The notes under the pieces are model-generated. The model made no database searches. It saw only the letters and a list, made by a program, of their open reading frames with translations, and was not told where the DNA came from. DNA of 64,000 bases from positions 1 to 64,000 of the forward strand of contig QHPD01000106.1 in assembly GCA_003218975.1 (NCBI GenBank), written 5' to 3'. Within the stretch, counting starts at the first letter, position 1. Each line of letters opens with the position of its first letter. The translations under genes were made by a program, and so were the position numbers. Shown one piece after another: positions 57,801 through 63,111 of the stretch. Source of the stretch: Verrucomicrobiota bacterium (lineage in GTDB: Bacteria > Verrucomicrobiota > Verrucomicrobiia > Chthoniobacterales > UBA10450).

Positions 57801-58622
57801 TCAATCCAGCGGACTCTTCACACCGATGCCTGGTTTGTTGAGGACATGCGTGTAAATCATCGTCGTGCTCACGTCTTTGTGCCCTAACAGCTCCTGAACC
57901 GTGCGAATGTCGTAACCACGTTGCAGCAGGTGAGTAGCAAAGGAGTGACGCAGACTGTGACAGTTGGCCCGTTTTACTATCCCAGAGGCGTGGACCGCTT
58001 TCTTGAGAGCGTTCTGTAATATTCCCTCGGCGATATGATGTCGCTGTCGATTGCCGCTGTGCGGATCGAGCGAGATCCGTGAAGAAGGAAAGACATATTG
58101 CCAAGCCCACTCGCGAGCCGCGTTTGGAAACTTTCGATTCAGAGCGAAGGGAAGATGCACGCTGCCAAACCCATCTTCGAGATCTTGCTCGTGTTGCGCT
58201 TTCACCCGGAACAAATGCCGGCGCAGCGGTTCGGCCAAATTCAACGGAAGCATCGTGATGCGATCTTTGCCGCCTTTGGCGTCGCGCACCGTGATCTGGC
58301 CGAGAGAAAAATCGATATCTTTTACCCGCAATCGGACGCATTCCATCAAACGCAGGCCACAGCCATAGAGAAGTCCAGCCATTAGCTTGGGCCCGCCTTT
58401 GAGATGAGCAAAGATTTGTTTCACCTCGGCGCGGGACAAAACCACAGGGAGCTTGGGCGGTTTTTTGGCTCGCTCGACCTTCTCCAGCCAACCGATCTCG
58501 TGCTTGAGCACTTCTTTATAGAGGAAAAGCAACGCGCTGAGCGCCTGATTTTGGGTCGAAGCCGCGACGTTCATGTCTCGCGCGAGGTGCGTGAGGAACC
58601 GCGCCACTTCCTCTTCCCCCAT
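57801..58622 (-). CDS. Integron integrase (IntI-type tyrosine recombinase), N-terminally truncated
   Basis: IntI-specific insert [40 protein letters not shown]; catalytic [12 protein letters not shown] and [16 protein letters not shown]. Frame stays open upstream to 58700 ([25 protein letters not shown]), then a TAA, with no ATG/GTG/TTG. Confidence 0.92.
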
Positions 58623-58697
58623 TTCAGCGGGATGACGTTTGCCATGGAAAAGGATGAAGCGCTTAATCCAATCGATGTAAGCCTGCTCGGTGCGAAT

Positions 58698-58738
58698 GCC
58701 TTAAAAGACCCGTTTTTTGGGCCGAATTCTCGTTAGAT
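58698..58738 (+). other. First recombination site of the cassette array (attI or attC-like), core GTTAGAT at 58732-58738
   Basis: GCCTTAAAAGACCCGTTTTTTGGGCCGAATTCTCGTTAGAT between intI and the first cassette ORF. Confidence 0.6.
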
Positions 58739-59399
58739 GATGGACGTGCGAACCGCCGCAGCACTTGGATTGCGAATCATTGCGCTCTGGCTTCTCGTCG
58801 CGAGCGCTTTCGGCCAGTCGCCTTCACCGTCTCCGAGTTCCATTTCTCCAGACAAGAAATGGCAATACATTGGCGGGGACGCACCGAAAATTGTCGAGGC
58901 TGATTCCAACCAAGTCGCATTGGAGTTTTCGGAGGGATGTAGCCTCGGCGGCTTCGGTGAAAATTCGACCGTGTTTTGGCCGCCAGATTCAAGACGGCTT
59001 GCATTTTACAGCTGTGGTGAGGGAAAAGAGCATCTCACTCTGCTCTACCAACTGCGCGACGCACGCTGGGTAGCATTGAAGACGCCGGGCGATGGGGACA
59101 AGCTTTTCGAGCGGGTCGGTAACATCATAGAAGCGCAAGCAAAAAGAAAAGGCCTGCCGAAGAAGACTTTCCTTCATATGCAATGGTGGAAAGTCGAGCC
59201 GGAGCGGTGGCTCGATTCAAGGACTCTAGCGATACATGTCTCGATGGCAGAAGTGGTGCACCGCGACAACGGCGAGTACGTAGGCCCCAGTTTCGGCACT
59301 GATCTTCTTCTTACCGTAGAGTTCGATGATGCCGGCGACTGGAAGATCGTCAAAACTCACCGAATGTCGGAAAAGGAGATCAAAAAGTTCGAACACTGA
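58737..59399 (+). CDS. Integron cassette ORF 1: secreted hypothetical protein
   Basis: 220 aa; N-terminal signal-like ALGLRIIALWLLVASAFGQ; start codon overlaps the core site. Confidence 0.75.
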   Translation: MMDVRTAAALGLRIIALWLLVASAFGQSPSPSPSSISPDKKWQYIGGDAPKIVEADSNQVALEFSEGCSLGGFGENSTVFWPPDSRRLAFYSCGEGKEHLTLLYQLRDARWVALKTPGDGDKLFERVGNIIEAQAKRKGLPKKTFLHMQWWKVEPERWLDSRTLAIHVSMAEVVHRDNGEYVGPSFGTDLLLTVEFDDAGDWKIVKTHRMSEKEIKKFEH

Positions 59400-59422: not shown

Positions 59423-59518
59423 ATCTAACTAGAACGATGAAGCCAACGGCCCCACTCGAAATGCGTTCAGCGTGTTTGCCACGAGACCCTGCCGTGGCTT
59501 ATCTCTTTCTCGTTAGAT
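59423..59518 (+). other. attC site 1
   Basis: R'' ATCTAAC / R' GTTAGAT perfect complement; L'' AAGCCAACGG / L' CCGTGGCTT complementary except one extrahelical A. Confidence 0.88.
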
Positions 59519-59519
59519 C

Positions 59520-60138
59520 ATGAAACCGTGTTCGATTTGTATGCTCGCTACACTGCAACTGAGTTTGTTGTCATTGACAGCCCAAGAATCGCCAGCTCCT
59601 AGCGTGTCGACCTCACAACAGCGGTCTTCGGCGCCTTCAGAAGCATCGGCGCAAGCTGCTCCGCAGCGCGACGGAGCCCACGACTTCGACTTCCTCATCG
59701 GTAACTGGAAGGCTCACGTTCGCCGGCTTCCCGATCGTCTGGTCGGTTCGACGACTTGGATCGAGTATGACGGCATCTCGAATCACAAGAAAATTGTCGA
59801 CACCAACGCGAACTTTGAAGAGTTCGAGGTCGATAATCTCGAGAAGCACCTGCACATCAAAGCGCAGACACTCCGGTTATATAATCCGGACTCGCATCAG
59901 TGGAGTATCTACCCTCTGGACCTGGACAAAGGCGTTCTCAGCCTACCGCCAGTTGTTGGTCAATTTACCGGCAATCGCGGCGAGTTCTACGATCAGGAAC
60001 AATATAAGGGGCGCTCGATCCTGGTGCGCTACATCTGGTTGAATATCTCGCCGAAATCGGCCCCGGATGGAACAATCCTTCTCGACCGACGGCGGGAAAA
60101 CGTGGGAAACAAACTGGATCTGCGAATTAACTCGATAA
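59520..60138 (+). CDS. Integron cassette ORF 2: secreted DUF1579-like protein with 3' frameshift
   Basis: HDFDFLIGNWKAHVRRLPDRLVGSTTWIEYDG...; +1 frame near 60060 gives ARMEQSFSTDGGKTWETNWICELTR* ending at 60138, before attC; annotated frame runs to 60164. Confidence 0.75.
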
Positions 60139-60158
60139 CACAAGCGTGTCGCACGCAG

Positions 60159-60264
60159 GCCTAACTAAGCGCTCCAGCCAACCCAGCAACTTGTTGATGC
60201 CCTCGATTTTATGCATCCTTCTTGACTTCAAGATAATGGATGGCTGAGGTTACTCTCGTTAGGT
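60159..60264 (+). other. attC site 2
   Basis: R'' GCCTAAC; AGCCAACC...GGATGGCT arms; ...GGCTGAGGTTACTCTCGTTAGGT. Confidence 0.8.
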
Positions 60265-60282: not shown

Positions 60283-60852
60283 ATGAACATCGCCCAAGAA
60301 CTTGAACGACTCGCCAAGCTCCATGCCGATGGAACATTAAGCGATGAAGAATTCGCCAAAGCCAAGAACCGGCTTTTATCTGTTCCCCCGCTTTCACGCG
60401 TTCCTTTTAAAGGCATACGTCGCCAGTCTTCACGGATAGTTTGTGGCTTGCCGCTGTGGGCGATTGCCATCGGTCCGGATTTGGAACGTGGGGAGATGCG
60501 TGGACACGCTAGGGCCATCTTCGCTTTGGGCGATATGGCGACCGGCTGGTTCGCGTTTGGCGGCTTCGCACGCGGCATTTTCGCGTTCGGGGGTCTTGCC
60601 GTTGGCCTTATTGCGTTTGGTGGAGTGGCTATCGGCGTCCTTTTTGCAGTTGGAGGTCTTGCGATTGGAGGCATGGCCTTTGGTGGGGGTGCGATTGGTG
60701 GCATCGCCATCGGCGGCGGAGCTTGCGGCTATTATGCGTTTGGCGGCGCTGCCGTCGGCGTTCATACGGTATCTGGCCTGCATCAGGATCCAGAGGCGGT
60801 TAGTTTCTTTCAACATTACTTTCCGTGGCTTAAACGCCTGATTCGTCAGTGA
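60283..60852 (+). CDS. Integron cassette ORF 3: SHOCT-like N-terminus plus Gly/Ala/Phe repeat protein
   Basis: MNIAQELERLAKLHADGTLSDEEFAKAKNRLL, then FAFGGFARGIFAFGGLAVGLIAFGGVAIGVLFAVGGLAIGGMAFGGGAIGGIAIGGG. Confidence 0.75.
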   Translation: MNIAQELERLAKLHADGTLSDEEFAKAKNRLLSVPPLSRVPFKGIRRQSSRIVCGLPLWAIAIGPDLERGEMRGHARAIFALGDMATGWFAFGGFARGIFAFGGLAVGLIAFGGVAIGVLFAVGGLAIGGMAFGGGAIGGIAIGGGACGYYAFGGAAVGVHTVSGLHQDPEAVSFFQHYFPWLKRLIRQ

Positions 60853-60865
60853 CGCTTTACCTGAT

Positions 60866-60981
60866 GCCTTAAAAGTGCGCTGCATCGAACCGCTGGCGGG
60901 AAAATCAGTTGAGGTTTTTAGATGAGAGTTTACAGGGCGCTCGGCGCTACCAGGGAGGAGCTGAGATCTGTCTCGTTAGAG
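60866..60981 (+). other. attC site 3 (degenerate left half)
   Basis: Right end GCTGAGATCTGTCTCGTTAGAG; left end GCCTTAAAAG similar to 58698. Confidence 0.55.
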
Positions 60982-61105: not shown

Positions 61106-61561
61106 ATGAAGACGCACAGTTATCGAAGCCGCAACGCCCTCGTTTTGATCGTCACCTGCCTTTTTCTTAGTGGATATACCGCTAACCATGCGATGAGCTA
61201 CGACGCGCAGTCAAGTCGCGCGGCTTTAGCATGGCCTGTCCCTGTGCGACCTGTTAACGGTCCAGCTCGTCTAAACATAAATCGGATTCCAGATCTGGGT
61301 AATTTTGTAATCGTCCGCTTGTGGATCGACGGTATGGGGGCCGGATCTATCGGGTATGGTCACACCTATGAGGGTCTCCTACCACCGGGACGGCATGTCT
61401 TAGCGGTAATGGCAAGTCCCAATCCGAAGTGGTGGACCCCATCGCAAATGATTCTGGATGTGCGAAGCGGCTACACTTATGACTTCACCGCGATGGGTGA
61501 CGGTTCAGGACGTTTGATTTTGACGGTGCCAGGCGCATTCTATCGTGTACGTAGCCGCTAG
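61106..61561 (+). CDS. Integron cassette ORF 4: secreted hypothetical protein
   Basis: 151 aa; signal-like NALVLIVTCLFLSGYTANHA. Confidence 0.65.
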   Translation: MKTHSYRSRNALVLIVTCLFLSGYTANHAMSYDAQSSRAALAWPVPVRPVNGPARLNINRIPDLGNFVIVRLWIDGMGAGSIGYGHTYEGLLPPGRHVLAVMASPNPKWWTPSQMILDVRSGYTYDFTAMGDGSGRLILTVPGAFYRVRSR

Positions 61562-61606: not shown

Positions 61607-61697
61607 GTTCTAAGAAAGTTGAGGGCCGATAGTTGAGTGTTGAGAGAAAGTGACGTTGCGCTCTCGCCAGCCGCAGCTAATCTTGTTCTCGTTAGGC
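61607..61697 (+). other. attC site 4 (left boundary uncertain)
   Basis: CAGCTAATCTTGTTCTCGTTAGGC right end; left end TTCTAAG weak. Confidence 0.55.
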
Positions 61698-61738: not shown

Positions 61739-62563
61739 ATGAATGCTCCTATGAATCCAAACAAAGCACTTTGGGAAAAAGGCGACTTTACGCGGATTGC
61801 CGAGAGCATGCGAGAAAGCGGAGAGGCGCTTGTCCAGCGACTCGGAATCACAAAAGGGCTCAAGGTTCTGGATCTCGGATGCGGCGATGGCACGACGGCA
61901 TTGCCAGCAGCGAAACTCGGAGCGGACGTGTTGGGCGTCGATATTGCGAGGAATCTCATTGAGGCTGGAAACAAGCGAGCCCAGGAGCATGGCCTCACCA
62001 ACTGCACGTTTCAGGAAGGCGATGCATCGAATTTGCACGAGCTGAAGGATCATACTTTTGATCTCGTCCTAAGCATCTTTGGCGCGATGTTTGCACCCAA
62101 GCCGTTTGATGTGGCCAAGGAGATGGTGCGCGTGACTCGGCCCGGAGGTCGAATAATTATGGGGAACTGGATTCCAAATGATCCGACGTTGGTGGCGCAG
62201 CTCTTGAAGATCAGCTCAACCTACACGCCGCCACCGCCGGAGGGTTTCATCAGCCCGATGACCTGGGGAATCGAGAGCAACGTAATCGAGCGTTTTGCCG
62301 GCGCCGGAGTTCCGGCGGAGAAGATATCCTTCGTGCGAGACACGTTTACATTCAACTTCCCCAGTGCACCCTCAGCGCTCGTGGATGAATTCAGGAAATA
62401 CTACGGGCCAACCATGAATGCATTCGAAGCCGCAGAAAAGAACGGCCGAGCCGCTGACCTGCAGAAAGAGCTGGAAGATCTGTTCAACAGCCAAAACAAA
62501 AGCCCTAGCAAGGATACCACCTCCATTCCTGCAACCTTCTTGCGCGTTACGGTTGCGCTTTGA
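61739..62563 (+). CDS. Integron cassette ORF 5: class I SAM-dependent methyltransferase
   Basis: LKVLDLGCGDGTTALPAAKLGADVLGVDIARNLIEAG...VTRPGGRIIMGNW. Confidence 0.9.
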   Translation: MNAPMNPNKALWEKGDFTRIAESMRESGEALVQRLGITKGLKVLDLGCGDGTTALPAAKLGADVLGVDIARNLIEAGNKRAQEHGLTNCTFQEGDASNLHELKDHTFDLVLSIFGAMFAPKPFDVAKEMVRVTRPGGRIIMGNWIPNDPTLVAQLLKISSTYTPPPPEGFISPMTWGIESNVIERFAGAGVPAEKISFVRDTFTFNFPSAPSALVDEFRKYYGPTMNAFEAAEKNGRAADLQKELEDLFNSQNKSPSKDTTSIPATFLRVTVAL

Positions 62564-62606: not shown

Positions 62607-62655
62607 GCCTAAGTTCGCCCTTGGCAGCGGTGGCTGAGCTTGTTCTCGTTTAGAC
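62607..62655 (+). other. attC site 5 (short, variant core GTTTAGA)
   Basis: GCCTAAG...GGTGGCTGAGCTTGTTCTCGTTTAGA. Confidence 0.6.
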
Positions 62656-62658
62656 CTC

Positions 62659-63111
62659 ATGCGCGCTTTCACATCGTCATTAATCCTCGCGCTGGTCATC
62701 ATCGGCACAGTCTCCAAGGCTGCTGATATCAGGCCAGCCGACACAAACACGCCTTTGTTTCGTATCTTCGCGCCCATTCCCATGAAGCGGGCAACCAGCG
62801 CGATTGGTACTCAACTCACGTTCGACAACAAGCGCCCGTTGCTAGTGGTTCATTCGGTGAGCGATTTGCGATTGGCTCGCGACAATAAAAGCGTGCTTAT
62901 TACTCTCACTCGGGCAGACGCGAAGAAATTCGCTGAGATGACGCAAAAGTACAATCAGGGTTTACTACTTTTTGAGGCTGAGGGTCGCGTTCTGGAGGCG
63001 ATGCAGATTACCACGCCTGTTGTAGATGGCGTTCTTGGATTCAAGTATCCCGACGAGGCAGCAGTTGCTGAATATTTGCGCCGCCGGTTTCGCATCGGCG
63101 AGTTCCGATGA
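62659..63111 (+). CDS. Integron cassette ORF 6: secreted hypothetical protein
   Basis: 150 aa; MRAFTSSLILALVIIGTVSKA signal, starts a few nt after the core site. Confidence 0.65.
   Translation: MRAFTSSLILALVIIGTVSKAADIRPADTNTPLFRIFAPIPMKRATSAIGTQLTFDNKRPLLVVHSVSDLRLARDNKSVLITLTRADAKKFAEMTQKYNQGLLLFEAEGRVLEAMQITTPVVDGVLGFKYPDEAAVAEYLRRRFRIGEFR

Follow-up and report, generated by a model that had tools for sequence, protein, structure and literature searches.

An attC site in a 5'-truncated chromosomal integron of a Chthoniobacterales bacterium, and a lineage-wide variant of its second extrahelical base

Results and discussion

Organization of the locus

The window, i.e. the whole stretch of 64,000 nucleotides that was analysed, belongs to a Udaeobacter-like soil bacterium (Verrucomicrobiota, Chthoniobacterales), whose best-named relatives are Verrucomicrobia AV42, Candidatus Udaeobacter and other Chthoniobacterales MAGs. 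An integrase gene, intI, lies on the - strand at 57801-58700; beside it, on the + strand, are the remaining half of an attI site (58700-58738) and five co-oriented cassettes. This is the orientation expected of such an array: intI on -, attC sites and cassette genes on +. The intI product matches TIGR02249 with 458 bits, from profile position 14, and contains the Pfam Phage_integrase and SAM-like domains.

The gene of cassette 1 (58737-59399, 220 aa) has homologs in the bacterial family and is bordered by the hairpin under study, attC1 (59423-59518). The gene of cassette 2 (59520-60164, 214 aa), of which several other genomes carry homologs that are 80-89% identical and in some cases directly flanked by attC, is followed by attC2 (60159-60264; 45.4 bits, E=1.4e-10 with the covariance model described below). 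Cassette 3 (60283-60852) encodes a SHOCT domain protein (Pfam PF09851), cassette 4 (61106-61561) a protein of 151 aa, and cassette 5 (61742-62563) a SAM-dependent methyltransferase (Pfam PF13847). The proteins of cassettes 1, 2 and 4 have no match in Pfam or NCBIfam. At the ends of cassettes 3 to 5 the model gives 11.4 bits (attC3, 60867-60981, E=0.52), 12.0 bits (attC4, 61608-61697, E=0.36) and 11.6 bits (attC5, 62607-62655, E=0.47), the last two sites retaining their L'-R' half. These are the next three hits of the model in the window after attC1 and attC2. Individually their scores of 11-12 bits are at chance level; we read the three sites as decayed attC because all are on the + strand and end exactly on cassette borders. 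The array is thus composed of five cassettes with two clear attC sites (attC1 and attC2) and three decayed ones. Directly 3' of the last R' box lies another ORF (62659-63111, +), and scanning the window with the covariance model revealed no attC behind it.

A preliminary description of this DNA had taken the array for a real integron, and the integrase, the attI site, the run of five cassettes and the well-scoring attC2 bear this out. It had also ranked the attC1 hairpin as the strongest evidence for an integron, a rank that belongs to the adjoining IntI match. The integron is not intact: intI has lost its 5' end and 3 of the 5 cassette-end sites are decayed.

The attC1 hairpin

From 5' to 3' on the + strand, the site reads ATCTAAC-TAGAAC-GATGAAGCCAACGGC-...-GCCGTGGCTTATC-TCTTTCTC-GTTAGAT, i.e. 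R'' (59423-59429), L'' (59436-59450), a terminal loop region, L' (59491-59503) and R' (59512-59518). The R boxes (consensus RYYYAAC / GTTRRRY) are ATCTAAC and GTTAGAT, paired at 7 of 7 positions, so their perfect complementarity, already pointed out in the preliminary description, holds to the letter. In the inner arm, stem alignment gives 13 paired bp and two extrahelical bases, both of them on the 5' arm: L'', GAT[G]AAGCC[A]ACGGC, pairs with GATAAGCCACGGC, and the surplus unpaired bases are on the L'' side. The pairing of AAGCCAACGG with CCGTGGCTT, one A being left out, had been correctly seen; the conclusion that the hairpin has a single extrahelical base has to be amended, as GAT at 59436-59438 also pairs with ATC at 59501-59503 and exposes a second unpaired base, G59439. 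This outer (second) base, G on the top strand and C on the bottom strand, is at the G20'' position of VCR. The inner (first) base is one of the two A's at 59445-59446, a T on the bottom strand, at the T12'' position. The two are 5 or 6 nt apart, 5-7 nt being the spacing used as criterion.

Folding with DNA parameters, which had been proposed as a check, places the R and L boxes of the bottom strand in a stem (-20.8 kcal/mol, z=-4.1 compared to shuffles; -19.3 kcal/mol for the top strand), with pair probabilities of 0.96 for the R box and 0.89-0.95 for the L box. The GAT/ATC pairs reach only 0.08 in the free ensemble, because the partly paired spacer competes with them; the second extrahelical base is unpaired with a probability of 0.72, and the other bulge is distributed over two neighbouring T's. 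In the predicted fold, 4 bp (AGAA/TTCT) could form within the central spacer, and the left side of the spacer is one base longer than in relatives. A fully paired attC spacer is reported to lower integration (PMC2727003), and the predicted spacer pairing and the extra left base could reduce the activity of attC1.

Covariation among related sites

A foldable segment between two co-oriented ORFs could also be an ordinary transcription terminator or a chance palindrome. In a scan for boxes and inner stem, a score at the level of attC1 occurs once in the 64 kb, for 0.017 expected per window from dinucleotide-preserving shuffles. The R/L box consensus, the constant placement of the two bulged bases and the compensatory changes seen within the family also speak against these readings. 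The compensatory changes were analysed on 38 attC mined from the integrons of relatives, none of them from the window, which were aligned and from which a covariance model was built. In this 38-site alignment, 94.9% of the cells are paired as proposed; 12 pairs have changed on both sides, with 124 double-change cells compared to 48 in shuffles, and shifting the pairing partners along the alignment abolishes the structure. Against the model, attC1 scores 58.5 bits (E=2.8e-14) on the + strand and 11.3 bits on the - strand, one training sequence (L131) being about 90% identical to attC1, which limits the independence of the model from this site. Rfam scans, which found two tRNAs only in the window and no match at all in the other loci, are neutral on the question. 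On the basis of the scan against shuffles, the covariation and the covariance model match, the terminator and chance palindrome readings were rejected, and we regard their probability as negligible.

The preliminary identification of the hairpin as an attC is supported by a model built from attC of other genomes: judged by its sequence, 59423-59518 is a genuine attC of the standard kind within a true integron. We are highly confident that cassette 1, the first of a sedentary chromosomal integron of this genome with a 5'-truncated local intI, has its 3' recombination site here.

The truncated integrase gene and its attI site

The frame of intI is open from stop to stop over about 299 codons and has no start, with a TAA at 58701-58703 falling just ahead of residue 33 of an intact copy. 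This intact intI is carried by another contig of the same genome (C76), and its product, 85% identical to that of the window, is colinear with V. cholerae IntIA (VchIntIA, PDB 2a3v) through the additional domain. Relative to the C76 copy and to the closest relative (G061), the window lacks about 154 bp, which comprise the start codon, some 32 codons and one attI repeat. Codon 33 is joined to the middle of attI at a junction around 58698-58700 (window 58697-58740; L009, L134); the genome being a fragmented MAG, this deletion rests on one assembled junction. By the same comparison, what is left of attI includes the crossover GTTAGAT (58732-58738) and a single GACCC-type repeat out of two. We considered whether the deletion is shared with the intI copies of G072 (AV42) that start near residue 34, and rejected this possibility: those are contig-end cuts.

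Most of the gene is present and open, the loss being confined to its 5' end. The retained part keeps the catalytic residues RKHRHY and the pocket residues P, H, H and W (P, H and H for the T12'' pocket). As the residual frame contains no stop and shows a dN/dS of about 0.03 against the C76 copy (dS being saturated), the 5' loss looks recent.

Flanks of attI are similar across the family (CTAACGAGAA ... AATCCG) and the repeat pair differs between genomes (L093, L098, L102, L104 and others), as if the repeats were coevolving with each IntI. A third intI, a C-terminal fragment, is found at the start of another contig (G000:C38:14-256; L011).

Proposed recombination at attC1 and present mobility

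By analogy with characterized systems (PMC2727003, PMC3053210), recombination would take place on the bottom strand at the R' box of attC1. The bottom strand, once single-stranded, would adopt the R/L hairpin structure and be bound by IntI protomers, to which the central spacer and the two extrahelical bases (T and C) would indicate strand and polarity. Strand exchange would occur at R' (GTTAGAT), so that cassette 1 could leave as an excised circle or cassettes could be joined at attC1.

Which integrase could act is a distinct matter. Since the local intI lacks a start and half of attI is gone, we infer that the window copy no longer yields a normal integrase. One may suppose on the contrary that it is translated from an unusual upstream start (e.g. 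ATT) and that the integron is fully active in cis; the 299 open codons, the intact catalytic residues and purifying selection until recently are compatible with this. The first in-frame ATG, GTG or TTG is however at 58622, well within the N-terminal domain. The initial residues are lost, as is the half of attI nearest to intI, and nearly all sampled relatives, leaving aside copies truncated in 5' by a contig end, code the missing residues. We consider activity in cis improbable, and any present mobility probably depends on the intact IntI of contig C76.

A further question, which is part of the attC reading and not an exclusive alternative to it, is whether attC1 is a fossil, i.e. an inert relic of the right shape on which no integrase acts. 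The startless intI with its halved attI and the decay of 3 of the 5 cassette-end sites speak for a fossil. Against it, R and L boxes are still paired in attC1 and attC2, an intact IntI is encoded elsewhere in the genome, and 15 attC matches persist there, on 8 contigs. We find a relic conceivable but rather doubtful.

One attC of this genome (G000:C30:74388-74513; L010:18389-18514) is located 10 kb past the window, near the contig end, in reversed orientation, which suggests a second array facing that of the window.

Integrons in the family and the phylum

Verrucomicrobiota are among the phyla listed as containing integrons (PMC8618304). Our literature search, in the library searched, found no paper on the integrons of the host's family. 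IntI is detected (E<=1e-60) in 38 of the 83 genomes of this family and attC (E<=1e-5) in 82 of them, often in at least a dozen copies; many of these genomes have no detectable intI. Across the phylum, the same covariance model detects attC at E<=1e-6 in 12 of 155 genomes, a figure which, the model being trained on the host's family, is a specificity check and not a total integron count.

A lineage variant of the second extrahelical base

The commonest described attC subclass is T-N6-G, with a bottom-strand G at the second extrahelical position. At this position attC1 has C; attC2 has the canonical bottom-strand G (C on top). In a base-neutral stem scan, 34 of 36 Chthoniobacterales sites have G on top and C on the bottom as outer base; the reverse, C on top and G on the bottom, holds for 19 of the 22 sites from other groups (Fisher p=1.6e-12, uncorrected for kinship). 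A wider set of 131 attC contains 109 G and 18 C on the top strand, with some bias as the model was trained on such sites. The few sites seen in other Verrucomicrobiota have G or A as top-strand outer base.

In an older survey the bottom-strand G was called absolutely conserved (PMC2727003), and another older survey named the blaVIM-2 attC as the only example with C (PMC3053210). G is nevertheless not required for membership of the attC class: a VCR carrying a G-to-C change remains able to recombine (PMC2727003), and the blaVIM-2 attC has C (PMC3053210). In laboratory assays, C at the second extrahelical position even raised excision by 3 of 4 integrases (PMC3053210).

The integrases also differ. 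At the position of VchIntIA Y210, almost all IntI sampled outside Chthoniobacterales have Y, and many enzymes of Chthoniobacterales have F, S, C, I, M, A or N (F in the window). Within the family, residue 210 and the extrahelical base are not strictly linked: Y210 enzymes such as those of L093, L098 and L118 adjoin C-type sites. We lean towards the view that in Chthoniobacterales, and perhaps more widely in Verrucomicrobiota, attC use a bottom-strand C as second base and IntI has relaxed the equivalent of Y210, the VchIntIA residue in contact with this base, which would constitute a naturally diverged recognition code. What is new is the lineage-wide C at the second base; as a single site, attC1 is ordinary. 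In a soil family where integron sites look near-universal, the base described as essential for strand choice differs systematically, and the many natural C-type attC with their own integrases make its role testable in natural pairs.

Comparison with known systems

attC1 shares with the VCR of Vibrio cholerae and with the attC of proteobacterial sedentary chromosomal integrons the R''-L''-L'-R' layout, the GTTRRRY crossover, and two extrahelical bases on the L'' arm, the inner being T on the bottom strand (PMC2727003). It differs from them by its outer base, C instead of G on the bottom strand, and by the phylum of its host, Verrucomicrobiota. The blaVIM-2 attC belongs to a mobile resistance cassette, whereas here C is the rule across a bacterial family.
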